38,870 bases of DNA from Crocinitomicaceae bacterium (GTDB taxonomy: Bacteria; Bacteroidota; Bacteroidia; Flavobacteriales_D; Crocinitomicaceae). Shown here piece after piece: positions 20,197 through 38,827 of the stretch (the first letter of the stretch is position 1; each line of letters starts with the position of its first letter). Location: the NCBI GenBank assembly GCA_025210175.1, contig JAOASF010000195.1, positions 1-38,870 on the forward strand, given 5' to 3'. The position numbers and the translations under genes are program-made. Below the pieces are notes generated by a model, which saw nothing but the letters and a program-made list of their open reading frames with translations, was not told the origin of the DNA and searched no databases.

Positions 20197-20209
20197 ATAG
20201 AAGAAACAC

Positions 20210-22215: not shown

Positions 22216-22824
22216 TTACTTTTTGTGATAATTGTATTTAAGTGCATTCTTTAATTCAGTTGACATCGTTTCTTGCATGTCCATGTTCACATAAAAGAAG
22301 GGAATGTTTTGGGGCAATTTTTTACTAAAGGATAAAACCGTTTTGGTGTGCACCCCCATGAACTTCGTCCAATGAATGAGAAAATACCATTCACGATTAA
22401 GCAATTCATTACGGTCAAAAGGAGTTTCATTGGTAGAATTTAGATTTGAAAATATATGATCAATATTTACTTCTCCATTTGCAATCCAAATACTAGTATC
22501 TCCCGCTTTTTCAACATAATCTTGAATGTTGCCATAACAATCTTGTTTCAAAGATTCTTTGATTGTATATTTTTTTCCTGAGTGATGAATCAAATGAAAA
22601 TTTGCTAGCGCATTGCGGTTGTCTTCTTCAACAAAATCGACGAACAATGTATCCGTAGGGACATATGATTGTCTTAAAGGATAATTGTTTTTTAAAAGAA
22701 ACTTGTTGATCGAACTAAAATTCTCGATTTTAGGTTTTCGAACTCCAGAAATCATTTTTGAAGTGAAAACGCAGGAGCAAAGAAACAAGAGTGGCGCTGA
22801 AACTAGAAAAAATGTCTTTTTCAT
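22216..22824 (-). CDS. Lipoprotein of unknown function
   Basis: This 202 aa protein has a signal with lipobox LCSC (Cys18). The mature part has no motif I recognise; it has charged helices and a W-rich stretch (REWYFLIHWTKF, about residue 145). It lies on the minus strand, downstream of another minus-strand lipoprotein gene and separated from it by a strong hairpin, so it probably has its own transcript. Confidence 0.6.
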   Translation of the reverse strand: MKKTFFLVSAPLLFLCSCVFTSKMISGVRKPKIENFSSINKFLLKNNYPLRQSYVPTDTLFVDFVEEDNRNALANFHLIHHSGKKYTIKESLKQDCYGNIQDYVEKAGDTSIWIANGEVNIDHIFSNLNSTNETPFDRNELLNREWYFLIHWTKFMGVHTKTVLSFSKKLPQNIPFFYVNMDMQETMSTELKNALKYNYHKK

Positions 22825-22834
22825 AACTTAATTT

Positions 22835-22858
22835 ATCCTCCCTCCGAGGAGGGAGGAT
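22835..22858 (-). terminator. Perfect hairpin between two lipoprotein genes
   Basis: ATCCTCCCTCC pairs with GGAGGGAGGAT around two bases. It follows the stop of the minus-strand gene at 22868 by 9 nt and continues into AAATTAAG on that strand; the tail is T-poor. Confidence 0.6.
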
Positions 22859-22867
22859 ATATTCAAT

Positions 22868-23443
22868 TTAGTCAGCTAATTTAACCAAAACTTTTCCCGA
22901 ATAATTATAAGATTTAGAACCAGTTCCGATGTTCTTTGTGCCTTGCTCAGCAATTGCCTGATATACTCCTGTTTTAAGTGTATATGAGCCTGCCTCTCCC
23001 AAAAGTACCACTGGTTCATCAATACCGAATTCTTCTTCGAAATTTGAAGGGTATTCATCTCCAATCATGTACAACATTACTTCATCATCTGTTAGTTGTT
23101 CAATACCAAGTTTTACACCAATTGCACCTTCCAAATATCCAGAACCTCCTGGATTTTTTATTAATGGTCGGTTGCATACCCCAAAACATTCGTTACAACC
23201 ACAATCTTTGTGATCTCGATTTCGGTCAGTGGTCGCTCTTGCCAGACGTATTGGCTCAAATGTAATATCCACATCCACATTTATTGGAGGCCAAGGTGCT
23301 CTTTGATTCAATTCTTCTTCTGTTGTTACAACAGTATTTTTTACTTCAGCTGCTTCGATCTCATCCTTATCACACGAGTTAAGGGTAATTGCAGAGATAA
23401 TTGTAATTGGCAAAATTGCTAATGCAATAATTTTCTTTTTCAT
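22868..23443 (-). CDS. Lipoprotein with cysteine cluster
   Basis: This 191 aa protein has a signal peptide and lipobox LNSC (Cys24). A cysteine-rich motif CGCNECFGVC lies in the middle (about 82-91), possibly a metal site or two disulfides. The C-terminal half has a regular beta pattern ending VLVKLAD. I recognise no family. A possible diverged ATACTC hairpin lies about 107 bp upstream of its start (23550-23567). Confidence 0.6.
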   Translation of the reverse strand: MKKKIIALAILPITIISAITLNSCDKDEIEAAEVKNTVVTTEEELNQRAPWPPINVDVDITFEPIRLARATTDRNRDHKDCGCNECFGVCNRPLIKNPGGSGYLEGAIGVKLGIEQLTDDEVMLYMIGDEYPSNFEEEFGIDEPVVLLGEAGSYTLKTGVYQAIAEQGTKNIGTGSKSYNYSGKVLVKLAD

Positions 23444-23549
23444 GATTTTAATAATAAAAGATTAATAGGTTTGATATCAAACAGTAATAGTCGTTAACTG
23501 CCACAAAATTATTGGATTTTAATTCATGGCTTCAATAGGTCCTTGATAA

Positions 23550-23567
23550 ATACTCTTTATGGAGTAT
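23550..23567. repeat. ATACTC-N6-GAGTAT palindrome outside the main leader copies
   Basis: ATACTC, six bases, GAGTAT is the same palindrome that opens leader copies at 27967 and 30855. Reading leftward on the minus strand, a gaagccatgaattaaaatcc segment loosely resembles the leader's gaaccttgtcagttaaaac, so this may be a decayed leader in front of the minus-strand lipoprotein gene. Confidence 0.4.
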
Positions 23568-23598
23568 CAATTTCAATATTTCTTTGGTGAGACTTGAG

Positions 23599-24681
23599 TC
23601 AATAATTCCCCTCAAACCAAATCTTTTGACATTCATCCCAACTCCCAGCAGGAAGCTTCTCTATCCCTGGATTTCCAAAAATTCGTCTCAAAGCTTCTGC
23701 TTCAACCAAACGATTGTCGAAATATTTGGGAGTAATACCTGTATACCCATCAGTCAGTTCGAAATACGATTTACCTTTCATTCCGTCCGTGAATTTGCCT
23801 AAATGAAACATCATTTCGAACACCAAAGGTTTGTGATTTTCCTCACGGTTTGGGTTGAGCTCATAGGTAGAAGCAAAGTCCATAATTTTCTTGAATAGCT
23901 TTATTCGTTTTCGAATTTGTTTTTCGGTATACCCCCACCAGCCTACGGAACCAAGATTTGCATAAAAGCGAATATCCAAATAGTTGGGAGTTTTTAAATG
24001 GAAACCTGGATCACCGTGGTACATGTTTCGTTGAAATAATTCAATTCTCTTCGAAACCAATTGTCGGTAAACATTATTGTCTTCGATATTGAGTAACATC
24101 ATTGCTAGTTCAAAAAAGCGCTTATTGGTTTTGTCTGGTTTGGCCTTGGGCGATCGTGGAATGAGATGATTGATTTCTTGAACAATCTCAATATAGCACC
24201 GAAACAACTCGTCTGTGATTTGAAAGAAATTGTGATGTCCGGAAGCCGATTTTAAAATCAAAAGATTGCTTTCAGCATTCACACGACTCAAAATAGACCG
24301 CAAACGATCTATTTGTGCCTGAAATTCCAATTTAATTTGTGGGATATAATCCACATGTCTAGGGGAGAATTTCATAAAATCCTTAAAACAACCATCATTG
24401 TCAATGAGAGGTCCCCAACAATCGATCATTTCCTGCAAAGTAGATTGATCACGATTGTACAAAGGCTTTCCAGATGTCAAGGTCAAATGGATGCCAATTT
24501 CGATGGGATTTCCGTGACAACAAGCGTGTAATTTTCGCAGGGCTTGTTCGAGATTCTCTTCGTTTTCTTGATTGACAAGTACCTGTACCGATTGAATATA
24601 TCCTTTTTCAACCATCTCATAAATCCCTTCATTGATAAAGGTACTTGGGCCGAAATCGTCAGCAGTGTAGATTACTTTCAT
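23599..24681 (-). CDS. YdjC/ChbG-like carbohydrate deacetylase
   Basis: This 360 aa protein begins MKVIYTADDFG; TADDFG (6-11) supplies the metal-binding Asp of the YdjC family. GIHLTLTSG (His65) and SGHHNFFQ (about 167-174) provide the other metal and catalytic residues. Family members remove acetyl groups from chitooligosaccharides or related sugars. It is longer than the about 250-300 aa norm, with an extra helical region at 190-280. It is third in a minus-strand run after a small basic protein and a P-loop protein, an unusual context for a sugar enzyme. Confidence 0.75.
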   Translation of the reverse strand: MKVIYTADDFGPSTFINEGIYEMVEKGYIQSVQVLVNQENEENLEQALRKLHACCHGNPIEIGIHLTLTSGKPLYNRDQSTLQEMIDCWGPLIDNDGCFKDFMKFSPRHVDYIPQIKLEFQAQIDRLRSILSRVNAESNLLILKSASGHHNFFQITDELFRCYIEIVQEINHLIPRSPKAKPDKTNKRFFELAMMLLNIEDNNVYRQLVSKRIELFQRNMYHGDPGFHLKTPNYLDIRFYANLGSVGWWGYTEKQIRKRIKLFKKIMDFASTYELNPNREENHKPLVFEMMFHLGKFTDGMKGKSYFELTDGYTGITPKYFDNRLVEAEALRRIFGNPGIEKLPAGSWDECQKIWFEGNY

Positions 24682-24709
24682 GATGTTTTAATTTTAATTG
24701 AAAGATCAC

Positions 24710-25153
24710 TTATTCAACGAATTCCATCATTCGTCGAATATCTGTTCGGTTAGCTTCAAGATAAAGTTCTTTTTTCTCTACTTGTACTATTGTTTTTCCT
24801 ATGAAAGTAATTTCCTCCGAAAAGGTGCGAAGTGCTGCATGTGTACCCAGATATAAACCATCTTTTCCTGGCATATCCTTGGTTCTACATGCACAAAACA
24901 CGAGCAAACAAGAGTGTTTGGATAAGAAAGAAAGAGCATTTAATACTTCATTATAATGATCACCCGGCGTTGCAACGCCTATAAGCTTCCCATTTTTGTT
25001 TCTTAGAACAACCATTTTATCGATACCATTCCCGTGTTTTTGTTCATCTATAAGAATCCAACCTAATTCTAATAATCGTTGAATGAGCTCTAGTAAAGTA
25101 GTGGATTTACCACAATTTCCGCGTCCACATAACGCAATGATTCGAGGCTTCAT
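24710..25153 (-). CDS. Small P-loop NTPase
   Basis: This 147 aa protein has Walker A GRGNCGKST (10-18) directly at the N-terminus and a hydrophobic strand LLVFCACR (about 83-90) in the Walker B position, with few acidic residues. It is much shorter than most NTPases and has no visible added domain. It lies 4 nt after the stop of a 47-codon basic protein gene and 28 nt before the YdjC-like gene. The three genes probably form one operon of unknown purpose. Confidence 0.65.
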   Translation of the reverse strand: MKPRIIALCGRGNCGKSTTLLELIQRLLELGWILIDEQKHGNGIDKMVVLRNKNGKLIGVATPGDHYNEVLNALSFLSKHSCLLVFCACRTKDMPGKDGLYLGTHAALRTFSEEITFIGKTIVQVEKKELYLEANRTDIRRMMEFVE

Positions 25154-25460: not shown

Positions 25461-25656
25461 CTACTCTAAATGGAGTATATCAGAGAATGGTTGAGTGGAA
25501 GTACATTGGTTAAAACCTAATTTTAAATCACAGTGCTTTCCAATTCGAATACAAAGAACTGTCTTATGGTTTTCTGGTTGATTTTAAAAAGGGAATCCGT
25601 ACGTAAGTGTTTGTTACTTAGATTGCGGAGTGATGGGTATACATAGGCTAACTGCA
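25461..25656 (+). repeat. Cassette leader repeat, copy 2
   Basis: It contains the TACTC-N6-GAGTA palindrome (25463-25477), ttggttaaaacctaatttta, ccaattcgaatacaa, aaagggaatccgtacgtaag, tgtttgttactta and ggagtgatgggtatacata. It ends at gctaactgca (25647-25656), whose exact complement tgcagttagc lies at 26564-26573, right after the cassette's last gene. Confidence 0.8.
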
Positions 25657-25675
25657 ATTGCAAATAATATAGAAA

Positions 25676-25939
25676 ATGGCAACAAATAGTGGTAAAAACT
25701 CGAGAAATGGACCAGTAAAAAATCGGAGCCAAGTCTTTAATCCGATAACTGGAAACTATGTGAAACGAGATACAAAAACTGGAAAATTTATTGATGTTAA
25801 ATCTGATGGTAAACCCTTCAAAGGTGTCAGAAAAGAATCTGTATCTATAAAGGCTAATCCACTTGTTCGAAAAGAAACGGCTATAAAATCAGAGAGTGCG
25901 GTAATAAAATTAAAAAACAGCAAAAATAAGGGCAAATGA
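25676..25939 (+). CDS. Small basic conserved-type protein (87 aa)
   Basis: This protein is rich in Lys, Asn and Ser, with a core FNPITGNYVKRDTKTGKF and DGKPFKGVRKE that looks like short beta hairpins. Similar small proteins occur widely ahead of accessory genes, but I know no function. It starts 20 nt after leader copy 2 and overlaps the next gene by ATGA, so the two are coupled. Confidence 0.65.
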   Translation: MATNSGKNSRNGPVKNRSQVFNPITGNYVKRDTKTGKFIDVKSDGKPFKGVRKESVSIKANPLVRKETAIKSESAVIKLKNSKNKGK

Positions 25940-26555
25940 AGCATCAGATTGATTACGATCGCAATGTTTTCATTAATTGTCCATTTGACGATGAGTATGA
26001 ACCACTTTTTAATGCGATTTTATTTACAGTTCACAAATGCGGATTTATTTTAAGATGTTCTAAAGAATACGAAGATTCAAGTAGCATTAGAATTCAAAAC
26101 ATAATCCAATTAATTCGAGAATCCAAATATTCTATTCATGACCTTTCACGTGTAAGTTTAGATGAAACAGCAAAATTACCACGATTCAATATGCCATTAG
26201 AACTTGGAATCTGTATGGGAGCAATAGAATTCAGGAGTAAAAAACAAAAAGACAACAAATATCTAATAATAGAAAGCGACAAGTTCAGATTTAAACAATT
26301 TATATCCGATTTATCTGGTCAAGATATTCGAGACCATAAAAATACAGTTGATGACGCTATAAAATAATACGTAATTGGTTAGCTGGAAAAACTCCAGAAA
26401 CAATACCGAGTGCAAGCATTATTAAGAATGAATATGATAGTTTTTTAGAAGATTTACCAATGCTTTGTAGTGAGAACAGTTGGGTTGTCGATTCATCAAC
26501 ATTTGATGAATATTCATCTCTCGTTACAAGTTGGTTGACCTTGGTGATAGATTAA
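25936..26555 (+). pseudogene. NCPFD-motif (Rossmann/TIR-like) protein, split by a -1 frameshift
   Basis: The first frame encodes DRNVFINCPFDDEYEPLF, IRIQNIIQLIRESKYSIHDLS (about residues 51-71) and RFNMPLELGICMGA, hallmarks of a widespread family of nucleotide-binding-looking proteins. It stops at 26365-26367 after DDAIK. In the next frame the protein continues IIRNWLAGKTPETIPSAS ... SLVTSWLTLVID to a stop at 26553, which is the family's usual C-terminal part. Adding one A to the AAAA run at 26361-26364 restores one frame of about 206 aa. It could be a decayed gene, a sequencing slip in an A run, or programmed frameshifting. The cassette end tgcagttagc follows the restored stop by 8 nt. Confidence 0.7.
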
Positions 26556-26952
26556 CAAAAAAATGCAGTTAGCATCAACTAAAAGCCACGGGCTGCAGAA
26601 CCACAATAGAGAATCCCGCGTCTCCTAGTTGAGAACCGTTATTGATCGAGACCGTTTTAGATAATGTGTTGGCTTGTTTTATATAAATCTTACATTTTGC
26701 ACAGGTCCCAAGGATAATAAAGATATAAACAAGTTTAAAGGTTCTAAGTGATTGAAAACAATGTGTTTACATCAAATTTTATTACGGAATTTTTCTGGTG
26801 TATACATCTGAGTATTGAAAACTTTGGCCAAAAAGTTTCTAAAATGCAACAAAAATGCCTTAGATTCGTTGAACAAATGAAATGAACGCCTCAATTTTAG
26901 TCTCACCATATTTCAAGGCGTCCATATCATCTCTCTAAATTAGCAATGTCAT

Positions 26953-27603: not shown

Positions 27604-27797
27604 CCTATAACACTAAGAAATGTCCCATAGGCGAGTTCGGCGAATCAGAAAAGCAGGTGCGAATTGGCAGTGCGCTAAATCACCGATTTGGCTTTTAGGA
27701 GAAAAAATTAAAAACAAAATGATGGGAGTTGGCGAAGTGCATTTCGGAAAGTTCGTATCTTTCTATCGCCTACGATAGCATTCTCCTACCGTTCACA
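27604..27797 (+). repeat. attC-like imperfect palindrome 3
   Basis: Inner boxes ataggcga (27627-27634) and tcgccta (27766-27772) mirror each other. The right arm (gtgcatttcggaaagttcg, then ctatcgcctac and accgttcac) is clearly homologous to the right arm of the site at 34934-35067. The left outer box is cctataac (27604-27611). Confidence 0.55.
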
Positions 27798-27814
27798 TCC
27801 ATAACTAAATTTCC

Positions 27815-28156
27815 AAAAACCTCCCAATTCTCATCAACATTCAATCAACTGATCAAACCTTCACACCCCGTTTTAAATCCAGATCCAATCTTCATTTTCA
27901 TCGACAATACATATTGGTCCATTTCAAAAAAAGACAATCGGCATGGAATCTAGAATGCATTTTCCCATACTCTGAAAGGAGTATTTCATACTATAGTCAC
28001 GTTGAACCATGTCAGTTAAAACCTATTTTTAAACCACATACTTTCCTTTTCGTATACAATTAATAGTCTTACGTTTTTGGGTTTAATTATAAAGGGAAAT
28101 CCGTTTGTAAGTTTTTATTACTTGGTTTGGGAGTGATGGGTATAAATAAGTTGGCA
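27815..28156 (+). repeat. Cassette leader repeat, copy 3 (long form)
   Basis: The long form begins catcaacattcaat and matches copy 5 over about 340 bp. The core (27961-28152) has ATACTC-TGAAAG-GAGTAT, tttcatacta, gttgaacca, gtcagttaaaacctattttt, aaagggaaatccg, ttattacttgg and gggagtgatgggtataaata. It ends at gttggca (28150-28156), complemented by tgccaac at 29428-29434 inside the last codons of the following gene. Confidence 0.85.
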
Positions 28157-28171: not shown

Positions 28172-29443
28172 ATGAAGACAAGTTACACTTTTGAACTTTT
28201 GACTCTTGATTCAAGCGGTCATTGTACAATAAAATCCGAACAAGCACTAGCATATTCTTTAATGTCCAACAGTGGTATATGGAGTACTCCAAAACTTAGA
28301 GACAATATAATCCACGATGAAGATTTAAAAATCACACTAGGTATAAGTGAAATAAGTCAAGAAGAAGAAAAGGATTTCAATATTAAGAATACCCTCATAA
28401 TTAAGTTGAAAGGTGAATTTGAAGTTGTGGAACAAATTCGTCTTAAATTCTTAAAGCACCTTGATTCAGTAGGTTTTGACCAAACTTACGTTTTAACAGA
28501 TGAAGTTTCTTCTCGAATTGCATGTGAAATTTATCCGAAAGTCAATAATGTAGAAAATGCGCTTCGTAAGTATTTAATGAAATTTTTCATTACAAAACTT
28601 GGCCCTAGTTGGTGGAATGTGACTGCAGACAGTGAAATGAAGAAAAAGGTTAATACACGTAAAAACAACGAGCAAGTATTTGCAAACTATATTGATAATA
28701 GGGCATTTTTAATTGACTTTGGTGAACTTGGAAAAATTGTACACTCCCAATCCTCTGGCTTTATCAGTCGAGAAGATATTGTTTCAAAGGTACTTGAACT
28801 AGATGAAACCGAAGAAGCAATTAAAAAGTTAAAAACTGAATTAGAAAGTAACTACACGAAGTTTTTTAAGGACACATTCAAAACTAACAACTTTCAACAG
28901 AAATGGGAAGAACTGGAAAAACTTAGACATAAGGTCGCCCACAACAATCTTTTTACAAAATTCGACTTAGACCGTGCAGAGGAATTAACCATAAGCCTAA
29001 GCGAAATCATAAACACAGCCAATGAATCCATAGATACAATACAATTCAATCTTGATGAAAAAGATATTCTAAAAGAAAATATAACACAAAATCTTGAAAC
29101 GTATGAAGTAATTACTGTAGAAGAATTGCTCCGAAAACTAGGAGAAAGCGAAACTTGGGCAAAAAGAACTAGAGACAATTTTGTTGGTTTGAAGCATTTT
29201 GTAACCAATTATTTGGGATCAATTGGATACGACTATCGGTCAAGTTACGACCTTATTAATCAACTTGAAGATGAAGGATTCGTTGAACTTTATGAGTATC
29301 AAGGAAAGAATAATTTATATCCAGTAACCGCGATTCGAAGTGTTAGACAACCAACAGGAACCTTGTCCGATAATGATTCCTTGAAAAATATAAAGTCAGA
29401 ACTTAGAAAAGAAGAAAAAAATATTCCTGCCAACACTCGCTAA
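28172..29443 (+). CDS. HEPN-motif protein (Swt1/ApeA-like HEPN), putative RNase
   Basis: This 423 aa protein has an N-terminal alpha/beta region (1-125), a helical bundle (about 126-285) and a C-terminal winged-helix-like part (about 310-400, with WAKRTRDNFVGLKHFV). LRHKVAHN contains Arg252-x4-His257, the R-x4-6-H signature of HEPN ribonucleases, on a helix after KWEELEK. HEPN proteins often cleave tRNA or mRNA to abort phage infection. It starts 16 nt after leader copy 3 as a single-gene cassette, with its cassette end buried in the last codons. The RNase role is inferred from the motif. Confidence 0.6.
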   Translation: MKTSYTFELLTLDSSGHCTIKSEQALAYSLMSNSGIWSTPKLRDNIIHDEDLKITLGISEISQEEEKDFNIKNTLIIKLKGEFEVVEQIRLKFLKHLDSVGFDQTYVLTDEVSSRIACEIYPKVNNVENALRKYLMKFFITKLGPSWWNVTADSEMKKKVNTRKNNEQVFANYIDNRAFLIDFGELGKIVHSQSSGFISREDIVSKVLELDETEEAIKKLKTELESNYTKFFKDTFKTNNFQQKWEELEKLRHKVAHNNLFTKFDLDRAEELTISLSEIINTANESIDTIQFNLDEKDILKENITQNLETYEVITVEELLRKLGESETWAKRTRDNFVGLKHFVTNYLGSIGYDYRSSYDLINQLEDEGFVELYEYQGKNNLYPVTAIRSVRQPTGTLSDNDSLKNIKSELRKEEKNIPANTR

Positions 29444-29493
29444 GTAAATAAAAGGAGAAACGTACTAAAAGCTAATAGTAAACTTCCTAGTTT

Positions 29494-29580
29494 GCCGTCA
29501 CGGGCCGACAGAAAAGAACTCTGAAAGTTTTGTATTTCTTATCCAAACCACTTCCAACCCTCATAAAGCCGATAATAACT
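29494..29580 (+). other. GC-rich hairpin and possible cassette junction before a secreted protein gene
   Basis: The cgtcacgggccgacag region contains gccgtc/gggc complementarity and resembles agccacgggct (26584) and gcgccctgcgggccgc (32600). ttatccaaacc...ccaaccctcat is similar to the start of the long leader at 32694. The ATACTC hairpin and the leader core are missing here. Confidence 0.35.
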
Positions 29581-30606
29581 ATGAAAAAAACAATTATAAT
29601 AACGCTCATCACAGTATACAATTTGATAACCGTCTCCGTTGTTGGGCAAACACCGATCGACGTTGCTGAAAATACACTCAAGATCGGAGCATTAGGAGAA
29701 GAAGAGTTTTATTATGGCTTTGCAGAAGGCGATCAAATAATTTTCAATTTCGAAGAATTGAAAGGGAAAGAACTTAAAGAGATAGAGATAATTGAGCTTC
29801 CGAATTCCTCAAAATTCATGGATTATAAGTCAAATAAAATTGAGAATAAAACGATTACCATTTCGACAACTGGCATTTATAAATTTCGCTTTTCGAATTC
29901 AGCTATGAGTGGACGAATTTGCAAGGTGAAAATTCAAAGAATCCCAGCAAATGAATCCACTAAAAATTTTAATACAAGCGTGTATTGGAAAACGGTAAAT
30001 GATACGACTTTTACAACTGTTGAAGAACGGTATTTAATTTCTAGGGACACAGTTGTACATAACATTACAGACCAACTTGCAAAAGTCCACTCAACCACAA
30101 ATGCGAATGGAAACAAGACTACGTTTAATTTTACACTCCCTCCAAATACGGTTTCCTGGAGCTATTATGTTGGTGTTGACCAAGCTGGACAAGAAGCATT
30201 TGATCAAGCAGTAAAGGAAATTACGAGCAAAGCAGCACCTGTCGTCTCAAAATTCCCGGGATATGGTCCATTGGCTGCCCTAGCGCTGGGAAGCGCCTCT
30301 TACATTTCTCAAATACAACAAGGAGAAGATATTGACTACTATATTTGTGATAGGAACAACGTTAATTTATTTTTAAGTGGCCAAGCCTTTTATTATGTAA
30401 AAAAAGGGAAAGTTATTAATGATTTTTCTCGGATGACGACTAATCTAAAAGGTTCATATCACTTCTGTCTCTCAAATGATAATGCCATAACAGGTGTTAC
30501 AGTAACCGTTAAGGTGACGGCTATTGCTGTAACTGAAAATTTTGGAACACGACCAATAGAAAAAATGAACGTAACGTCAAGACAAGAGGCTTATTTAAAG
30601 AATTAA
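29581..30606 (+). CDS. Secreted/periplasmic protein of unknown function
   Basis: The ATG at 29581 gives 341 aa starting with a clear signal peptide (MKKTIIITLITVYNLITVS, then VVGQ). The mature part is beta-rich (KTITISTTGIYKFRFSNSA suggests a jelly-roll-like sandwich) with a small glycine/alanine-rich hydrophobic patch (about 213-240, PGYGPLAALALGSASY) that could contact a membrane. A C-terminal beta domain repeats the 'GSYHFCLSN' type strand seen earlier as 'GIYKFRFSN'. No family is assigned. It is coupled to the small gene after it. Confidence 0.65.
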   Translation: MKKTIIITLITVYNLITVSVVGQTPIDVAENTLKIGALGEEEFYYGFAEGDQIIFNFEELKGKELKEIEIIELPNSSKFMDYKSNKIENKTITISTTGIYKFRFSNSAMSGRICKVKIQRIPANESTKNFNTSVYWKTVNDTTFTTVEERYLISRDTVVHNITDQLAKVHSTTNANGNKTTFNFTLPPNTVSWSYYVGVDQAGQEAFDQAVKEITSKAAPVVSKFPGYGPLAALALGSASYISQIQQGEDIDYYICDRNNVNLFLSGQAFYYVKKGKVINDFSRMTTNLKGSYHFCLSNDNAITGVTVTVKVTAIAVTENFGTRPIEKMNVTSRQEAYLKN

Positions 30607-30809
30607 TGGTTTCGAACCAAGAGTTAAGAAAGCTGGCAACTCACGGTATTCTGAATGGCGAAACTAATACGATTAAAAAAACGCCAGAATTAGCTTGTCA
30701 AATACTTTTAAGAGAAGACATCATGAATCGAATTTGGACTACATCCATTTATCCGAGCCGATTTTCTTTATTAAACCCTTTTCGTATATATAGATTAAAT
30801 CCTAAATGA
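30606..30809 (+). CDS. Small coupled protein (67 aa), uncertain
   Basis: Its ATG overlaps the previous stop (TAATG). It has a helical N-terminus (NQELRKLATHGIL) and a basic tail (RFSLLNPFRIYRLNPK). No family is recognised. The tight coupling is the main support; it could also be a chance frame or a truncated remnant. Confidence 0.4.
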   Translation: MVSNQELRKLATHGILNGETNTIKKTPELACQILLREDIMNRIWTTSIYPSRFSLLNPFRIYRLNPK

Positions 30810-30848
30810 ACTATTTCAATAAATTGCAACCTGCCGCATGTGACTAGC

Positions 30849-31050
30849 TTTTCCATACTCTGAAAGGAGTATTTCATACCAGGGTCAAGTTGAACCTTGT
30901 CAGTTAAAACCCATTTTTAATCATATTTCTTTCCAATTCGAATTCAATTATTATTCTTACGTTTTACCGGATGATAATTAAAGGGAAATCCATAAGTAAG
31001 TGTTGGTTACTTGGATTGGGAAGTGATGAGTAAACATAAGTTAGGGCTCA
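30849..31050 (+). repeat. Cassette leader repeat, copy 4
   Basis: ATACTC-TGAAAG-GAGTAT (30855-30872) is followed by atttcatacc, ggtcaagttgaaccttgtca, gttaaaacccatttttaa, tttccaattcgaattcaatt, aaagggaaatccataagtaa, ggttacttggattgggaagt and gatgagtaaacataa. It ends at gttagggctca (31040-31050). The complement is only partly kept after the gene (tgagccc at 32575-32581). Confidence 0.85.
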
Positions 31051-31055
31051 ATTAA

Positions 31056-32570
31056 ATGAAAAAGAAAAATCAACATTTTCAACAACACTTGGAGTGGGAA
31101 TCATTTCTCTGGCCTTTAGAAGTGCAAAACCTGTCATCAATGCACGGAAATTATAACCTACCTAAAAATTCGATGCTTAAAATTTCAAGAGATGATGTGT
31201 ATAAGCTCAATGCTGTTCTGACCGGAGAAGTACAGAATGACAGAGATCTTGAATACAAAATCGATGGTAGAACACCTATTGAAGGCGAATTAATAAAGGG
31301 AGATAAAATTTGCGGGTATGACTGCTATGGTAATATCGAATACACCATTGAACGCTTTCTACTGAAGAATATAAATTCCAGATATACAGGAATGCCCCCC
31401 AATATCATGATAAATTTTCAATCATCAGTGATGCTGGCCTCGATAGACGAGAAGTTCTCAGAGGATACTAGACCTGTCAGTTCAATACTTGACTTTTATT
31501 TATCAGGAAAAATTAACATGCTCTTTCCGAGAAGCACGGATAGAGCTATGGAGGAGCGATATAGTAAATCTCGACACTCAATTGATCCAGAAGTTAAAAA
31601 ACCGAAACATATATCTGCCAATACTCATGGAGCTAGTAGAGATTATTTCTACATAGAAACCTCTGATTTTAATTTCATAGTTCAAATGGTTGATAATGGT
31701 TTTCTACCAGATTGGGCAAATGGAATTCAAATTGAGTATAGAACGGACTTTAAAAAAATACCAAGCGAATTAGAGCGTGAAGCTATTTCGGAAATTGTCA
31801 GTTTCGTTCTAGGTACACACCTATTAAAAATTGGCGAAAGCCATATTGACGCATCCAATAATGTATTGTATAGAAAGTCCATGAACCCTTGGGGAGACAA
31901 TGTAATTTCCAAGTGTAGTTCATCAGCATCCCCACCAATTAGTTTGAATGATCACGAAGACAGGGATAAAATTGAAAGAGTTTTGAAGAAACTTGTTCCA
32001 AAATATTTAGAACTGAGAGAAAATTTAGGGTTCAAAGATGTCCTTTGGAAATACTGGATTGCTAACGAACTTGCAATTGGAACCAACTTACCAATTCTAT
32101 CAAGTGCTTTGGAGAGTCTAGCTGAACGATACATAGAGTCAAATGACCTAACACGATCATACAGCAAAGCCGAGAAAACTGCTTACAAAAAGTTGATCAA
32201 GCCTGAGCAAGATTCTCTGTCTGAGAAGCTAGAATCTTTCGATTTTTCAAAAAGAGTGCTAGATATTTTGGTTAATCCATATTCTCTCGGGGTTGGACAG
32301 AAATTAAAACTGTTCTTCCAAAAAATTGGATTAGATTTTTCGAATGACTCCGTGGAAGCAGAGGCTTTGAAGGCACGGAACAAAATGACACACAGCTCAT
32401 TGGACACATCTGACGAAGAAATGATAAAATATTTAAGACTAAGTGGCGCTTACAAATCTTTATTCAATAGAACTCTTTTGAAAATTCTTGAGTTTGACGA
32501 AACATATATAAACTTCTATTCCAAATCACCTTCGAACATTGACATGTCTGAAAACATGAAAAGAGAATAA
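31056..32570 (+). CDS. ApeA-like HEPN defence protein
   Basis: This 504 aa protein has an N-terminal beta-rich domain (about 12-210; FLWPLEVQNLSS and GNYNLPKNSMLKI at its start) and a C-terminal helical domain (about 300-490) with ARNKMTHSS, giving Arg441-x4-His446, the HEPN active-site signature. This two-part layout and size match ApeA-type abortive-infection proteins. Those sense phage through the N-terminal domain and cleave RNA with the HEPN domain. It follows leader copy 4 by 5 nt as a single-gene cassette. The assignment to ApeA proper is tentative; the HEPN signature is seen directly. Confidence 0.6.
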   Translation: MKKKNQHFQQHLEWESFLWPLEVQNLSSMHGNYNLPKNSMLKISRDDVYKLNAVLTGEVQNDRDLEYKIDGRTPIEGELIKGDKICGYDCYGNIEYTIERFLLKNINSRYTGMPPNIMINFQSSVMLASIDEKFSEDTRPVSSILDFYLSGKINMLFPRSTDRAMEERYSKSRHSIDPEVKKPKHISANTHGASRDYFYIETSDFNFIVQMVDNGFLPDWANGIQIEYRTDFKKIPSELEREAISEIVSFVLGTHLLKIGESHIDASNNVLYRKSMNPWGDNVISKCSSSASPPISLNDHEDRDKIERVLKKLVPKYLELRENLGFKDVLWKYWIANELAIGTNLPILSSALESLAERYIESNDLTRSYSKAEKTAYKKLIKPEQDSLSEKLESFDFSKRVLDILVNPYSLGVGQKLKLFFQKIGLDFSNDSVEAEALKARNKMTHSSLDTSDEEMIKYLRLSGAYKSLFNRTLLKILEFDETYINFYSKSPSNIDMSENMKRE

Positions 32571-33062
32571 TAACTGAGCCCAGCAAAACCTGTAAGCAAT
32601 AGCGCCCTGCGGGCCGCTAATGCTCATAGCCGAAATCGCGTTACCCCATTTAAACCCGAAGTCAGTCTACCTTCATTTTCTCAGCCAAAACTAATTATCC
32701 AAACCCCTATCAACCTCATCAACATTCAATTCGCGGATCCAAACCCTTACAACCCATATTAAACCCAGAGCCCTACCAACATTTTTCATTGACAATACTT
32801 ACTGATCCATCTTAAAAATTGATTGACAAGCACGTCTATAACACATTTTCCCATACGCTGAAAGGAGTATTTCATACTAGAGTCAAGTTGAACTTTATCG
32901 GTTAAAACCTATTTTTAAACCACATTGCATTCCAATTCGAACACAAATAATTGTCGTACGTTTTCCAAGTTCATTATTAAAGGGAAACCCACTGTTAATT
33001 GTTTGTTACTTGGATTGGGGAGTGATGGGTATATATAAGTTAGGCTGCACTAAAAACAACAA
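32571..33062. other. Cassette junction with GC hairpins and the longest leader copy
   Basis: There is no gene here. It holds tgagccc (32575), GC-rich hairpin sequence gcgccctgcgggccgc (32602-32617) and ctcatagccgaaatcgcgtt, then the long leader copy 5. Confidence 0.55.
32690..33048 (+). repeat. Cassette leader repeat, copy 5 (long form)
   Basis: It matches copy 3 from catcaacattcaat onward. The hairpin is ATACGC-TGAAAG-GAGTAT (32853-32870, one change), then tttcatacta, gtcaagttgaactttatcg, gttaaaacctatttttaaac, aaagggaaaccc and gtttgttacttggattgggg, then agtgatgggtata. It ends at gttaggctgc (33039-33048), exactly complementary to gcagcctaac at 34934-34943 after the two-gene cassette. Confidence 0.88.
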
Positions 33063-34301
33063 ATGATAAAATCAATAAACATAGAGTCTTGGAGGCAATT
33101 TGACAAAGTTCAAATTAACTTCCACGATAGGCTGACAATACTTACAGGTGCTAATGGTGCTGGAAAGACTACCATTTTAAATATAATTAATCAGCATTTT
33201 GGTTGGCAAAATCAATTAGTAGGAACTGCAAAAAGAGATAAGAAAACAGGTGGACTAAATTACTTGACTGGATTTTGGAAGAAACTAATGGAAACCACCA
33301 TAAATCCAAATGATAATAATCCTGATAAGATTGGAGTACTTCACTACTCGAATGGACAACAAACGAACCTATTAATTCCAAAAAAAATTGGGACAGTTTA
33401 TAATGTTCAAATCCAAACTCAACAACCTCTAAATGGATTTAATATACCTTCTCATAGACCAATATATAAGTACCAAGCTGTTCCGAATATATCAACAAGT
33501 GTAATTACAAAGAAACAGGCATTTAATAGTTATAGACAATCTCAAAAACAAAGATATTTTAGCCAGAGAAGTGAAAAAACAGAAACCTATTTCATTAAAG
33601 AAACTCTTATTTCACTTGCGGCTCTTGGATATGGCAATCAAATTGTAAATTCTAATGAAGGAGCAATTAAAATTTATGAAGGGTTCATTGATATCCTTAA
33701 AACAGTTCTACCGCCAAAACTTGGTTTCAAGTCTCTTTCTATAAGAATACCAGAAGTAATTCTTGAAACTGAATCAGGAGAATTTAGTATTGACGCAGTA
33801 TCTGGTGGAATTGCTTCCATTATTGATTTGGCTTGGCAAATCTATATGTTTGATGACACCGAAACGCCTTTTGTAGTTTCATTTGATGAGCCCGAAAATC
33901 ATTTGCATCCTGAAATGCAAAAAACTCTTTTGCCAAATTTTTTAAAAGCCTTTCCAAATGTTCAATTTATAGTAGCGTCACATAATCCATTCATTATTTC
34001 ATCAGTAGATGATTCAAATGTTTATGCTCTAGTATATAATGAAGAAAATAAAGTTACTTCCGAATTACTTGAAAATTTTGAAAAATCTGGAACTGCAAAT
34101 GAAATCCTTCGTCAGGTTTTAGGAATTGAAACAACAACACCAGAATGGGTTGATGATAGGATTGACCAAATTTTAAATAAGTATTCATCTACTGGCATAA
34201 CACCTGAAAATATTCAAATTTTCAAAAATGAACTAACAGAAATAGGTTTGAATAAATATATTAATCAGGCAGTTGTCGAACTAATTTCTAGAAAAAAATG
34301 A
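33063..34301 (+). CDS. SMC/OLD-like AAA ATPase of a Septu-type pair (PtuA-like)
   Basis: This 412 aa protein has Walker A GANGAGKTT (29-37), an ABC-type signature VSGGIAS (246-252), Walker B FVVSFDEPENHLHP (270-283) and an H-loop ASHNPF (305-310), the order of ABC/SMC-like AAA15 ATPases. It is fused to no nuclease but overlaps an HNH endonuclease gene by 4 nt. ATPase + HNH pairs of this design (PtuA/PtuB, also found with retrons) defend against phages. The C-terminal about 80 aa are helical, as in partners that bind the HNH subunit. It is the first gene of cassette 5. Confidence 0.75.
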   Translation: MIKSINIESWRQFDKVQINFHDRLTILTGANGAGKTTILNIINQHFGWQNQLVGTAKRDKKTGGLNYLTGFWKKLMETTINPNDNNPDKIGVLHYSNGQQTNLLIPKKIGTVYNVQIQTQQPLNGFNIPSHRPIYKYQAVPNISTSVITKKQAFNSYRQSQKQRYFSQRSEKTETYFIKETLISLAALGYGNQIVNSNEGAIKIYEGFIDILKTVLPPKLGFKSLSIRIPEVILETESGEFSIDAVSGGIASIIDLAWQIYMFDDTETPFVVSFDEPENHLHPEMQKTLLPNFLKAFPNVQFIVASHNPFIISSVDDSNVYALVYNEENKVTSELLENFEKSGTANEILRQVLGIETTTPEWVDDRIDQILNKYSSTGITPENIQIFKNELTEIGLNKYINQAVVELISRKK

Positions 34302-34942
34302 TTGAGCTTAAAAAGAAAAGCAAGCCTCAATTACTTATTAATAATGGAGATGCTTGGACTGCTGATTTAATGACAGAGTTTTACCAAACAAATACAATTA
34401 ACAAAACTAAACAGAATCGTTATAGTCGCACAGAAATTAAGGAAGTTCTAGTTGAAGAAACCAATGGCAAATGTGCCTATTGCGAAAGTAAGGTAACGCA
34501 TATTTACCCTGGAGATATAGAACATATTATTCCGAAAGCAAAATTCCCAAGATTAACGTTTACTTGGAATAATTTGACATTTGGTTGCTATTGGTGTAAC
34601 AATAAAAAAAGAAATTTTTTAGACCGAGCAAATATGATGTTGAATCCATACAAAGATAAAACGAACGAACATATTCGTGCTTTTGGACCGATTATTTGTC
34701 ATATCAATTCTAGTCAGAGAGGCGAAATAACTTGGAGAGTTTTAGAATTAAACCGAGCAGAGTTAAGAGATAAAAGACAAGAAAAAATAGAAGAGCTTCA
34801 GGTGTTAATTGATAAATATAACTTAACAACGAATCCGACTCTTAAAGGACTTATTGAAGTTGAAATATTAGATTTTATTGAAAGAACTGATTACTCTTTT
34901 AGTTTGAAACAATATTTTGAAGATAATAAAAACGCAGCCTAA
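34298..34942 (+). CDS. HNH endonuclease of a Septu-type pair (PtuB-like)
   Basis: This 214 aa protein has zinc Cys pairs CAYC (59-62) and CYWC (97-100) bracketing the HNH core DIEHIIPKAKF (73-83), with N91/N92 and N101 completing it. The GKCAYCE..IEHI-PK..N..C..CN..K layout is that of HNH_5-type nucleases such as PtuB. It would cut DNA or RNA when released or activated by the ATPase encoded just upstream (ATGA overlap). The cassette end gcagcctaac covers its last codons. Confidence 0.8.
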   Translation: MIELKKKSKPQLLINNGDAWTADLMTEFYQTNTINKTKQNRYSRTEIKEVLVEETNGKCAYCESKVTHIYPGDIEHIIPKAKFPRLTFTWNNLTFGCYWCNNKKRNFLDRANMMLNPYKDKTNEHIRAFGPIICHINSSQRGEITWRVLELNRAELRDKRQEKIEELQVLIDKYNLTTNPTLKGLIEVEILDFIERTDYSFSLKQYFEDNKNAA

Positions 34943-35067
34943 CAATGTATATAAAAAATAGGCGAAATAGTAGTGAATTCAAGGGTTTTGGCTCGCATCA
35001 AACTTTGTGCTTAACCGAAAGTTTAGTACTTCGTAATCGCCTACTTTTCATATACTAACCGTTGTGC
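34934..35067 (+). repeat. attC-like imperfect palindrome 4
   Basis: Outer left box gcctaac (34937-34943), inner pair taggcga (34959-34965) and tcgccta (35037-35043), outer right accgttgtgc (35058-35067). Arms align as tgtatataaaaaataggcga against the complement of tcgcctacttttcatata, with an extra few bases on one side. Length (134 bp), box order and position between gene groups are those of integron attC sites, though the right box gttgtgc departs from GTTRRRY at one position. Confidence 0.6.
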
Positions 35068-35089: not shown

Positions 35090-36952
35090 ATGTGGTCAGA
35101 TAACGAAACAACAGAAGACTTACTCGGATTCAAGGTCCATGCTGACTTAATTACTGAAGTAGTAAAAGATGATGCATTGTTACCAATAACAATTGGTGTC
35201 TTTGGAGATTGGGGAAGTGGGAAGTCGAGCATTCTAAAAATTGCTAGTGAACAATTAGATGAACAAGATGATGGCACTTTTGTATTGTATTTCAATGGGT
35301 GGTTGTTTGAAGGTTATGATGATGCAAAAGCAGCATTATTAGAATCAATAATAAAAGAGTTTGAGAAAAATCAAACATTTGGAGCTAATGTAAAAGGAAA
35401 AGCAAAGAAATTACTTAAGTCCGTTAATTGGATGAGGGTTCTAGGATTAGGATTCAAGAAAGTAGCTCTTCCAGCTGCGAGTGCATATTTAACGGGAGGG
35501 GTTTCATTGATCCCTTATTTAGTTGAACAATTTGGAAGCTTAAAAGCTGAAGATATTGCAGAAAAACTTCAAGGTGAAGAATCCGAAGAATTTCTAAGAT
35601 CACTTTTAAAAGATAAGGAAGCCGAAGACAAATCTATGCTTGTACGGGAATTTCGAGATGGATTTGCTGAACTAATTGAGGAATCTAAGATCAAGAAACT
35701 AGTTGTTGTCATAGATGATTTGGATAGATGCACTCCTGATAGAATTATCGAAAACTTGGAGGCCATAAAACTCTTTCTTAATGTTGAAAAAACTGCATTT
35801 GTGATTGGAGCGGACCCAAGAATTGTAAGGCACGCAATAGAATATCGCTTTAAACCGAATCATGATGGAGGGGACAATGATAGAATTGTAGATGATTATT
35901 TAGAAAAGCTAATTCAAGTTCCGTACTACCTTCCTAAATTATCAGACTCGGAGGTAGAAACATATATCTCATTGTTAATTGCAAAAAGAGATTTAACAGG
36001 TAATTCTTTTCAAAAAGTATTGGACGTATTTTATTCCTATAGAGAATCAAATAGATATAGTGTTTTTGGACTTTCTAATGTAAAAGATCATTTGGAGAAA
36101 GAAGAGTTTGAAAAGTTATCTATAGGACTTTCTTCAATTCCTGCATTAGCCCCTATAATAACTCAAAGCCTATACGGTAATCCTAGACAAATAAAACGAT
36201 TCTTAAATACTTTCACTTTGAGAAAAAGATTGGCTGATATCGCCAACATTACTGGGTTTAATGATGCTGTCTTGGCAAAACTTATGATTCTTGAATATTC
36301 TGAATTACCTCTTTTTAAGGAATTATACAATTGGCAAATAACTCAAGAGGGGATGCCTTCACAAATAAAGGAACTAGAAGGGGGTTGTGAAGATGGTACA
36401 TTAAGTGAAAAAAAGGAACGACTTGAAACTAACTATTCTAAATGGACAAGAGAAAAATTAATCAAATGGTTATCGGTCGACCCTAAATTACAAGACGTTG
36501 ATCTTAGAGATTATTTTTGGATTTCTAGAGATCAAATCTCTTCAAGTATTCTAGGGGCAAGTTTAGTTCCGCCAATTGTAAAGTCATTATTTAACAAATT
36601 AAATCAAGATAGCTTACCAGCAAAAGCATCTAAACATATAATCAGCACTGAAGTAAAAATCTTAGGAGAATCAGAGTTACCACAATTTCTTGTTTTTTCA
36701 AGTTCAATCCTTAAGAAAAACAAAAACCAAAAGAGGCTATATGATGTTTTTCATTACCTGATTGAAGAAGGTGTAGAAGGAGCAGAAATGTACTACAAAG
36801 AAGCATTGATGAACATTACAAATAATGGAGTTGAAGCTGCCGTTGGGAATAGTTTGAAGAGAATAAATGTATCCGAATCATTCAGGCAGTTTTTAAATGA
36901 TTTTTTTAAAGACAATAAATCTCCTGCATCAAAAGCATATAATCTAAAATAA
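35090..36952 (+). CDS. qatA: KAP-family P-loop ATPase of the Qat system (QatA)
   Basis: This 620 aa protein has Walker A GDWGSGKSS (39-47), Walker B LVVVIDDLDR (204-213) and the KAP hallmark NPRQIKRFLNTF (about 364-375). A hydrophobic insertion between Walker A and B (about 118-145, ALPAASAYLTGGVSLIPYL) is usual for KAP ATPases and may touch membrane. It is the first gene of a KAP ATPase, unknown protein, QueC-like set, which is the qatABC order of the QatABCD anti-phage system. It lies just after attC-like site 4 and overlaps qatB by 1 nt. Confidence 0.85.
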   Translation: MWSDNETTEDLLGFKVHADLITEVVKDDALLPITIGVFGDWGSGKSSILKIASEQLDEQDDGTFVLYFNGWLFEGYDDAKAALLESIIKEFEKNQTFGANVKGKAKKLLKSVNWMRVLGLGFKKVALPAASAYLTGGVSLIPYLVEQFGSLKAEDIAEKLQGEESEEFLRSLLKDKEAEDKSMLVREFRDGFAELIEESKIKKLVVVIDDLDRCTPDRIIENLEAIKLFLNVEKTAFVIGADPRIVRHAIEYRFKPNHDGGDNDRIVDDYLEKLIQVPYYLPKLSDSEVETYISLLIAKRDLTGNSFQKVLDVFYSYRESNRYSVFGLSNVKDHLEKEEFEKLSIGLSSIPALAPIITQSLYGNPRQIKRFLNTFTLRKRLADIANITGFNDAVLAKLMILEYSELPLFKELYNWQITQEGMPSQIKELEGGCEDGTLSEKKERLETNYSKWTREKLIKWLSVDPKLQDVDLRDYFWISRDQISSSILGASLVPPIVKSLFNKLNQDSLPAKASKHIISTEVKILGESELPQFLVFSSSILKKNKNQKRLYDVFHYLIEEGVEGAEMYYKEALMNITNNGVEAAVGNSLKRINVSESFRQFLNDFFKDNKSPASKAYNLK

Positions 36953-37701
36953 TGGGAACTTCTAAATCATATAAAGCAACAGTACAAGGACAACCTCAAT
37001 GGGGAGAGTTAAGTAGTTCCGTTACTAGAAGTTGTGATGGAGGAGATGTGTCATCAGACAGTCTATCGCGAATACTAGGGAACTTTGTGAATGTAGTCGG
37101 AGGGGCTAGTGTTTCGGGAAGAGGAGGCTCAAAAATAGCAGGTAGAAGTGGAATCAAAACAGCCAAAAAGTTAGGAGGATTTATTGGTGGTTTTGTTGCT
37201 TCTGGTGGAGATTTATCACAAACATTATCTCAAACAGGTCTAATCGATTTAACAGGTAAATCGGTTGAGGATGTAATTGATCATTTAATAGAGTTTTGTT
37301 CTGGTCCCGCTTCAACGATTGATGCCCGTGCAGCTAAAGAAGCTTCTAGAAAATTACTGGAGGAAATTGCTAGTAACGCAAGTACTATTGATGAGTTGCA
37401 AGAAAGTCTTCAAAATACGGTTGACCGAGAAACGCTTGAAGGTTTAATGGTTAAATATTTTGGATATTATGTTCTTGAGCACTTATCTGTAATGTTCTAT
37501 GAACATTTGGTAATCAAAAAGGGAAAATCTGAATGTTCCAACTTATTCAGACAAATTGAGGCATTTATTATTGATCGATTGGATGAGATGAATAAAACAA
37601 ACCCATTAAATAATATAAATTGGGGAAGTGATGATGCAGATAGACTTATTAAAAATATTCAGCAAGATGTACTAACAGTTTTTGAGAATCATGAGGGTTA
37701 A
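36952..37701 (+). CDS. qatB: QatB-like protein of the Qat system
   Basis: This 249 aa protein opens MGTSKSYKATVQGQPQW and SSSVTRSCDGGDV, then a glycine/serine-rich stretch (about 45-95), followed by a helical domain. This pattern and its place between a KAP ATPase and a QueC-like gene identify it as QatB. Its biochemical role is unknown; it is required for Qat defence in described systems. It overlaps qatA by 1 nt and qatC by 11 nt. Confidence 0.75.
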   Translation: MGTSKSYKATVQGQPQWGELSSSVTRSCDGGDVSSDSLSRILGNFVNVVGGASVSGRGGSKIAGRSGIKTAKKLGGFIGGFVASGGDLSQTLSQTGLIDLTGKSVEDVIDHLIEFCSGPASTIDARAAKEASRKLLEEIASNASTIDELQESLQNTVDRETLEGLMVKYFGYYVLEHLSVMFYEHLVIKKGKSECSNLFRQIEAFIIDRLDEMNKTNPLNNINWGSDDADRLIKNIQQDVLTVFENHEG

Positions 37702-38827
37702 TGTCGAAATAACAGCAGCTAGTAATGGTCAGTTTGCAAACTTATTTCTCTGCTATACTGAACCTGAAACGGAAAATGAAAAAAAAGTTCAACTAAAGTT
37801 TCATGACTTCACTGACCTGCATGACTTTACAAATGACACTTCTTCATTAGGTTTTGATTTCTTCTTAATCTCAGCAATAGTTTATGGAATTGATGACCTC
37901 TTTTCCAGAGAAAAATATTCATTTAATGGCTGGACTAGAGAATTTGAAATTCAGTTCCCAGTAAATGACATTGATGTATGGACTCCTACAGCTGATAGCC
38001 TTAATGAGGCATTGACTTTTCTAACAGGAGATTATTGGTCTGTTTCTTTTTCCAGCCTGAATACAAGGATTTACGTTGAACGAGGAAACAGAATAAGAAG
38101 TTTGATTCCGCAATATGACTTTGGAGACTATGAATTTGCAAGCCTTTTTTCAGGTGGTTTAGATTCGTTAATAGGTGTGATAGATGAACTGACCAATCTT
38201 ACAAATGATAAAAAGGGAATTTTGATTTCTCATTCGGATGGAGCACACGCAGGACCAAAAATTGATCAAGAAAGGATACTTCCTAAACTAGAAAGCAACT
38301 TTCAAAATTCCATAACACATTTAAGCCTTAGGGTTGGTCTGTCAAATACTGACCAAGATGGAAATAAAATAGAACGTGATTCAAATCAAAGGAGCAGATC
38401 AATTTTGTTTTTGGGTATAGCGACTTACATTGTTAATATCATTCCGAACATTAACACACTTCTTTTGCCAGAAAATGGGACAATTTCTTTAAATCATCCG
38501 TTAACGCCATCAAGAAGTAGTTCGTTAAGTACAAGAACAACACATCCTTATTTTATTGAAAAAATTCAGGAGGTTTTAAGACAAACTGGAATATCCGTTC
38601 ATATCAATAATCCTTATTATTCCAAAACTAAAGGAGAAATGGTTTTTGAATGCTTGAACCAAGCAGTCTTAACAGAGTTGTTTCCTGAATCTGCATCTTG
38701 TGGTAAAAGAGGTCATACAGCCCATTGGGATATTAAGAATGCTAAGCAATGTGGTGTGTGTATGCCTTGTATCTATAGAAGTGCTTCTTTACACAAACTC
38801 TATTTAGACAATGAGGTCTATGGATAA
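37691..38827 (+). CDS. qatC: QueC-like protein of the Qat system (QatC), possibly truncated
   Basis: I prefer the ATG at 37691 over an upstream TTG at 37682; this gives 378 aa. FSGGLDSLIG (about 153-162) is the PP-loop ATP-binding motif of QueC. A C-terminal zinc-type cluster SCGKRGHT..CGVCMPC (about 336-361) followed by RSASLHKLYLD is the QueC/QatC signature. QueC makes 7-cyano-7-deazaguanine; QatC may use similar chemistry to modify a target. The frame stops at TAA 38825-38827 after DNEVYG, but the codons beyond stay open to the window end as DLPNLPDPINASPD, so the stop may be premature. A TatD-like QatD would be expected next, outside the window. Confidence 0.78.
   Translation: MRVNVEITAASNGQFANLFLCYTEPETENEKKVQLKFHDFTDLHDFTNDTSSLGFDFFLISAIVYGIDDLFSREKYSFNGWTREFEIQFPVNDIDVWTPTADSLNEALTFLTGDYWSVSFSSLNTRIYVERGNRIRSLIPQYDFGDYEFASLFSGGLDSLIGVIDELTNLTNDKKGILISHSDGAHAGPKIDQERILPKLESNFQNSITHLSLRVGLSNTDQDGNKIERDSNQRSRSILFLGIATYIVNIIPNINTLLLPENGTISLNHPLTPSRSSSLSTRTTHPYFIEKIQEVLRQTGISVHINNPYYSKTKGEMVFECLNQAVLTELFPESASCGKRGHTAHWDIKNAKQCGVCMPCIYRSASLHKLYLDNEVYG

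Follow-up and report, generated by a model that had tools for sequence, protein, structure and literature searches.

Candidate HEPN genes lie in a cassette array with repeated leaders

Contig JAOASF010000195.1 belongs to a 3.25-Mb metagenome-assembled genome (MAG) of a Crocinitomicaceae bacterium (GCA_025210175.1). We analyzed this whole contig (38,870 nt, hereafter the window) and found that it carries a series of gene cassettes, two of which encode proteins with an Rx4H motif of the kind found in HEPN domains. The tRNA gene, recombinase gene, leaders, and cassettes described below all lie on the plus strand. The first gene (28172-29443) encodes 423 aa and contains the motif LRHKVAHN, and the second (31056-32570) encodes 504 aa and contains ARNKMTH. 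Recounting the positions placed the two residue pairs at R252/H257 and R441/H446, exactly as a first-pass annotation of this DNA had them. That annotation also described the two proteins as otherwise unrelated, and we indeed detected no relation between them by BLAST or profile comparison (best BLASTP E = 1.6).

Both genes stand behind a copy of the same leader. The leaders of the 423-aa and 504-aa open reading frames (ORFs; 27961-28152 and 30849-31042) are 80% identical over 194 nt, and the leader before the Septu gene ptuA (32847-33044) is 81% identical to that of the 504-aa ORF. A shared leader is therefore real, although the earlier description of the copies as near-identical was too strong and two further copies had gone unlisted. 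We count five: three full-length copies ahead of the 423-aa, 504-aa, and PtuA genes, a further one (25462-25647), and a short copy that stops at 20187. In order, these are copy 1 (20139-20187; 81% identical to copy 3 over 72 nt), copy 2 (25462-25647; 74-76% identical to copies 3-5), copy 3 (27792-28150, core 27961-28150; 77% identical to copy 5 over 368 nt), copy 4 (30849-31040; 80-81% identical to copies 3 and 5), and copy 5 (32678-33039, core 32847-33039). The similarity stops at AAG^TT, a few bases ahead of each gene. The junction reads ACATAAG^TT in copies 1 and 4, AAATAAG^TT in copy 3, ATATAAG^TT in copy 5, and ACATAGG^CT in copy 2, with an overall crossover motif of GGGTATANATAAG^TT.

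In the attC sites of integrons, the start of a cassette (R') is complementary to a segment at its end (R''). The sequences behind the leaders follow this rule: within the first 10-14 bases past each junction, we found a segment whose reverse complement recurs at the end of the same cassette's gene, matched over 10, 10, 7, 7, and 10 nt. Pairing each start with its own end scores highest among the 120 permutations possible for five cassettes. Cassette 1 (20188-20855) contains a gene for a 211-aa lipoprotein-like protein (20210-20845), followed by R'' TAGCCATAAC (20846-20855), complementary to the start GTTATGGCTA. Cassette 2 (25648-26641) contains small genes and an attC, with R'' TGCAGTTAGC (26564-26573) complementary to the start GCTAACTGCA. 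The body of this attC (26574-26641) is 87% identical to an attC on contig C138 of the MAG, and also occurs on contigs C110, C189, and C185. The main gene of cassette 2 (25936-26560) is broken: its frame stops at 26367 and resumes in another frame up to the attC. Cassette 3 (28172-29443) is the 423-aa HEPN gene, whose 3' end overlaps R'' TGCCAAC (29428-29434). Cassette 4 (31056-32570) encodes the 504-aa ApeA-like HEPN candidate (E353, R441, H446) and is followed by a probable attC (32575-32640) with an imperfect R'', TGAGCCC, and the next core, GTTACCC, at 32640.

Cassette 5 (33063-34942) encodes PtuA (33063-34301) and PtuB (34298-34942), which PADLOC identifies as a Septu system (E 1.7e-167 and 2.5e-69, respectively). 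Its attC (34934-35066; fold z -3.25) has R'' GCAGCCTAAC at the PtuB stop codon, complementary to the start GTTAGGCTGC, and is followed by a core, ACC^GTTGTGC, directly ahead of QatA. The cassette after it (35090-38827) comprises QatA (35090-36952), QatB (36952-37701), and QatC (37682-38827), with strong PADLOC matches for QatA and QatC and a weaker one for QatB; the contig ends before any QatD gene. Qat has no leader of its own and sits behind the attC of the PtuAB cassette. Based on the attI-like leader junctions and the attC half-sites, we assign the 423-aa gene, the 504-aa gene, PtuAB, and QatABC to integron cassettes. Since the 423-aa protein is a HEPN protein (see below), and what had been noted as an ATPase-HNH pair and Qat are Septu PtuAB and QatABC, the first-pass count of four likely defense cassettes in about 10 kb is a fair one.

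Leader junctions resemble attI sites beside integron-type integrases

The 3' ends of the leaders match an attI-like site elsewhere in the same MAG. Within positions 1-2151, contig C138 encodes an integron-type integrase, a tyrosine recombinase containing PF13495 and PF00589. About 100 nt past it comes an attI-like site (GGGGTATAAGTAAG^TTAGG), followed by a 240-aa cassette and an attC. The first 119 nt of the 240-aa cassette are repeated exactly at the contig end, which suggests that this cassette is tandemly duplicated. At least nine homologues of the C138 integrase in related genomes reach a contig end within 300 nt (L103, L104, L108, L110, L115, L120-L122, and L124), as expected ahead of repetitive cassette arrays. 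Five others are followed, 89-104 nt past the end of the match, by a site with a 9-nt R'' downstream (for example TGTATATATAAG^TTATG); another five 9-nt R'' matches occur at dispersed positions, as many as chance would give in this search. When we scored 77,708 window positions with a matrix built solely from the five clustered sites beside integrase homologues, the leader junctions ranked 1, 3, 17, 80, and 1301, the first four ranks belonging to copies 3, 5, 1, and 4. In related genomes we found only the 3' motif of the leader, in genome G061, where TATATATAAG^TTAGGCTCC heads a cassette ending in GGAGCCTAAC, a perfect R''. A pattern search with the leader gave no match in 85,000 species genomes or in viral contigs. 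Judged by sequence, the leader 3' ends are attI-like insertion sites. What had been annotated as a common leader is common to these genes, but the evidence indicates that its 3' end is an integron attI-like site, with integron cassettes behind it. The locus has attI-type sites and attC sites whose R'' is complementary to the start of the same cassette, and no adjacent intI in the window; we therefore describe it as an attI-bearing cassette array and not as a complete integron.

The main alternative to attI sites is that the leaders serve as promoter cassettes without genes, like those of Vibrionaceae superintegrons, and drive the defense genes. Gene-less cassettes with promoter activity have been described (PMC11014356), leader 5 starts ~40 nt past the terminal core of the cassette 4 attC, and leaders 3 and 5 have ~365 nt in common without a gene. 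A gene-less cassette needs an attC of its own, however, and in neither of the two leaders tested did we find an R'' complementary to the start of the preceding cassette, with scores no better than those of shuffles; we therefore rejected the leaders as attC sites of gene-less cassettes. In addition, the leader 3' end is like attI and unlike the attC sites of the array, which end in ACC^GTT, and copy 1 lies directly behind the backbone genes of the element that carries the array. Together, these observations make promoter cassettes unlikely.

The leaders could also be ordinary regulatory or 5' untranslated regions that were copied along with their genes, with the integron features being unrelated. 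In keeping with this idea, the similarity stops within ~20 nt of the start codon, and a Bacteroidota-type promoter can be fitted to copies 3 and 5. This is a match in only two of five copies, near background, as 22% of random 240-nt stretches are expected to match, and we rejected a leader promoter on these grounds. We also rejected a conserved structured RNA: the leaders have no Rfam match, and their folds (z -1.9, 0.1, 0.0, -0.9, and -3.2) have no structure in common. Because the boundary of the leader falls on the crossover of cassettes that carry an attC of their own, and attI sites from other genomes match it, we consider a copied regulatory region very improbable and interpret the leaders as attI-type sites.

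The 423-aa protein belongs to a widespread HEPN family

An Rx4H motif is found in 22% of shuffles of the 423-aa protein and in 38% of shuffles of the 504-aa protein; of 399 ORFs with 300 aa or more, 49% have one. As the motif alone is at chance level, the assignment of both proteins to HEPN in the first-pass annotation has to rest on family matches and on conservation in relatives. By these measures the 423-aa protein is of the Swt1/Abi2 HEPN type, and the case for the 504-aa protein is weaker.

The 423-aa protein comprises an alpha/beta domain (residues 1-110), a HEPN domain (~111-289, with E128/R132 and R252/H257), and a winged helix (~316-390). Ex3[KR] and Rx4-6H are signatures of HEPN domains (PMC3710099), and both are present here, as E128-N-A-L-R132 and as R252-H-K-V-A-H257 with a polar residue after the arginine. 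The Swt1-like HEPN family PF18731 matches residues 127-272 with 25.0 bits (E 2.5e-5; gathering cut-off 27.5 bits), while an 83%-identical orthologue reaches 29.1 bits and other relatives up to 34.8 bits, above the cut-off. The PADLOC model PDC-M34B matches the protein with E 7e-12 and, across the family, all 31 aligned sequences (best E 1.4e-14); 11 of the 31 also match PD-T4-5 and three match AbiD. PD-T4-5, a relative of AbiF/D, is an abortive-infection gene (PMC9519451).

Scanning 85,000 species genomes, we identified 53 relatives of the 423-aa protein, mostly from Bacteroidota where the record is named. Those in Mangrovimonas yunxiaonensis, Nonlabens ulvanivorans, Marinoscillum, and Paradesertivirga are 64-83% identical over nearly the full length. 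Residues E128, R132, R252, A256, and H257 are invariant in the 31 aligned sequences. As one of the two search patterns behind this set included the motif and thereby biased it, we take motif conservation mainly from eight independent relatives found by profile or tblastn without the motif, in which the same five residues are invariant. Neither the 423-aa nor the 504-aa protein was found in the phage genomes or viral contigs searched. The earlier suggestion that the 423-aa protein might represent a new family did not hold up: with relatives in dozens of genomes, a PDC-M34B match, and PF18731 matches through its relatives, its sequence places it in a widespread family of the Abi2/Swt1 HEPN type.

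We predicted the structure of the 423-aa protein with AlphaFold2 using the 31 sequences (pLDDT 79.8). The model shows a helical domain in which helix 241-256 ends at the R252/H257 motif, together with long helices at 111-143 and 263-289 and the winged helix at 316-390. Structural comparison gave modest support: HEPN residues 511-628 of AbiA (8oz7), the sole solved HEPN in the aligner's list, align to residues 112-291 with a Z of only 6.7. Foldseek gave no significant hit, and a search of PDB sequences gave no match.

The genomic contexts of the relatives bear on function. In a Nostoc BREX operon, a relative lies between brxC and pglX, in agreement with the stand-alone HEPN backup effectors reported for BREX loci (PMC12839542). 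A Paradesertivirga island combines a relative with HsdS, PrrC, HsdM, and a DndB/DpdB-like protein, and a Persicobacter plasmid combines one with phage genes. Two relatives lie in integron cassettes: in Neolewinella aquimaris, TGCGCCGAAC...GTTCGGCGCA flank the gene, and in Mangrovimonas the corresponding pair is TACTGCCAAC/GTTGGCAGTA. The Nonlabens relative seems to be a solitary cassette at an isolated site. In Neolewinella, a second, HepT-like RNxxVH segment takes the place of the C-terminal winged helix; relatives with such a C-terminus are at L026 (8857-10161), L025, and L011, and the C-terminus of the family is exchangeable.

These contexts also speak to the idea that the two HEPN proteins are stabilization toxins or RNA-binding regulators that the array carries, and do not act in phage defense. 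Integrons often carry toxin-antitoxin cassettes, and HEPN integron cassettes have been proposed to cause dormancy (PMC3710099). Neither ORF has a small partner gene beside it in the window, however; relatives of the 423-aa protein are part of a BREX operon or of a type I restriction island and match PD-T4-5 and AbiD, and the neighboring cassettes are Septu and Qat. A toxin or regulator role is therefore rather unlikely, and we infer that the 423-aa protein is a defense effector predicted to cut RNA upon infection.

The 504-aa protein shows a marginal relation to ApeA

The 504-aa protein has no match in Pfam (even at E up to 10), PADLOC, or NCBIfam, and no meaningful hit among PDB sequences. 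The sole relative that we identified is encoded on a Leptospira plasmid, with 24% identity across the C-terminal half. In a comparison with ApeA, a profile of eight Bacteroidota ApeA proteins ranked the 504-aa protein first among 725 sequences at a marginal E of 5.6e-4 (the table rows above it show the same gene again, from overlapping loci). E353, R441, and H446 align with the invariant E, R, and H of the eight ApeA proteins, and hhalign gives the same register (P 0.002). We found no profile match to the N-terminal beta domain of ApeA, and as PF18739 is without a match we do not file the protein as ApeA.

RNKMTH might thus be a chance Rx4H in a protein that is not HEPN. The failure to obtain any Pfam hit, the frequency of the motif in shuffles, and the low confidence of the structural model of the C-terminus would all fit. 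On the other hand, RNxxxH is kept in the distant Leptospira homologue, and the ApeA profile both ranks this protein first and aligns the residues that are invariant in ApeA. We regard a chance motif as a real possibility, though on balance not the likely one. The C-terminus is best described as a putative weak relative of the ApeA HEPN domain, the best in this test, and by analogy the protein probably works like ApeA.

The array lies on an integrative element adjoining a tRNA-Ser gene

Upstream of the array, a tRNA-Ser gene (anticodon gct; 14733-14820; ARAGORN, Rfam) is followed 250 bp downstream by a tyrosine recombinase gene (15069-16298), then by genes for RteC, a helix-turn-helix protein, and an amidase (Pfam). 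The recombinase contains Arm-DNA-bind_5, Phage_int_SAM_5, and Phage_integrase domains; we assign it to the integrative element, and it is not the integron integrase. The region adjoining the tRNA gene is an integrative element, and the tRNA gene is its probable integration site.

Between the first and second cassette groups, the otherwise plus-strand array is interrupted by minus-strand genes, including a YdjC-like gene (22216-25153). In the first group, a 202-aa ORF (20938-21546) is matched weakly in PADLOC by a type II methyl-directed restriction enzyme (E 0.021) and may encode a further defense nuclease. A 341-aa protein with a signal peptide and no family match is encoded between the two HEPN cassettes (29581-30606); its gene may be part of cassette 3. 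Outside the element, at 10427-10866, a 43-nt repeat with core AGTGGTAMACATTMGACCATTCGGTTTT occurs four times.

Model for the array

Taking these data together, we propose that the locus is an integron-type cassette array on a tRNA-Ser element, that its leaders are attI-type landing modules, and that HEPN effectors are among its cargo. An integron integrase would recombine a circular cassette with the leader 3' end at GGGTATANATAAG^TT, leaving the attC half-site of that cassette behind the gene. The five leaders would in this way hold five first-position cassettes, including those for the 423-aa protein, the 504-aa protein, and Septu PtuAB, with QatABC as the second cassette in line behind PtuAB. 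The most likely source of the integrase is the chromosomal integron of contig C138, whose enzyme would act in trans. For the 423-aa protein we predict a single-gene abortive defense effector: its N-terminal alpha/beta domain or C-terminal winged helix might sense infection, and sensing would free a dimeric HEPN domain that cuts RNA with its R252/H257 pair. The 504-aa protein is predicted to act likewise, in the manner of ApeA.

Several observations weigh against this proposal. The part of the element in the window lacks an IntI gene, and against TIGR02249, for which the integron-integrase cut-off is 265, the C138 integrase reaches 111 and 97 bits in two separate segments. The junction of leader copy 2 departs from the GTT core, and leader homology extends 190-365 nt upstream, far more than the 20 nt shared with the C138 attI. 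Cassette 4 has an imperfect R'' and cassette 3 one of just 7 nt, and in a simple RNA model the majority of the attC sites at this locus do not outperform shuffled sequences in folding. For the effectors, the Z of 6.7 against AbiA lies in the range of chance helical matches, Foldseek hits to the 423-aa model (none below E 0.001) fall mainly on the flanking domains, and a single-sequence model of the 504-aa C-terminus reached a pLDDT of only 38.6 and was discarded. Even so, we consider the proposal as a whole likely.

A further step is more tentative. The mobile element may have multiplied an attI module and so gained several first-position slots, which the host's chromosomal integrase would serve in trans; a different defense cassette would occupy each slot, near its module. 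Defense cassettes could then be swapped in parallel, with no queueing behind a single attI. We see this as a possible scenario, somewhat less probable than its negation.

Comparison with known systems

The 423-aa protein resembles Swt1-like HEPN proteins (PF18731, Abi2/Swt1 clade), PDC-M34B, PD-T4-5, and AbiD/AbiF in combining HEPN with Ex3[KR] and Rx4H, and its PF18731 and PADLOC relatives are single-gene abortive effectors or effectors linked to BREX or restriction. To the Swt1-like HEPN it adds an N-terminal alpha/beta domain and the exchangeable C-terminus. This places an uncharacterized Swt1-type HEPN family among likely defense effectors. The 504-aa protein resembles ApeA (HEPN_Apea, PF18739) in its length of ~500 aa, a motif near the C-terminus, the aligned E, R, and H, and an LLkeLGF end. 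Unlike ApeA, it falls below Pfam detection, its N-terminal domain is not recognizable as ApeA_NTD, and its known relative is only on Leptospira plasmids.

Integrons have recently been recognized as stores of phage-defense genes, mostly in Vibrio and other proteobacteria and with one attI per array. Our data indicate that mobile elements of Bacteroidota draw on the same kind of cassette, with the attI-like leader in several copies and the integrase elsewhere in the genome. They also supply an attI sequence, ~90-105 nt past the integrase gene, for one integrase family of Bacteroidota; with it, such arrays and their defense cassettes could be found systematically.

The integron arrays of Vibrio cholerae and Xanthomonas carry phage-defense genes (PMC12409362, PMC12444791). 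There, as at our locus, defense genes take the form of attC cassettes of the kind exchanged by an integron integrase. Our array differs in lying on an element of a Bacteroidota MAG that is integrated at a tRNA gene, in lacking an adjacent intI, and in that several cassettes each have their own attI-like leader, as opposed to one attI per array. The closest described oddity to the repeated leaders is the delta-attI cassettes of class 1 and 2 integrons, in which extra attI copies are active (PMC12901181). These likewise place extra attI copies within an array, and their crossover, AAACAAAG^TTRRRY, resembles the TATANATAAG^TT found here. A delta-attI usually replaces the attC of a cassette, however, whereas here complete cassettes with their own attC stand between attI-like leaders of 190-365 nt. 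The HEPN genes belong to or lie near known families, and what is new at this locus is the repeated attI-like leaders without an element-borne integron integrase.

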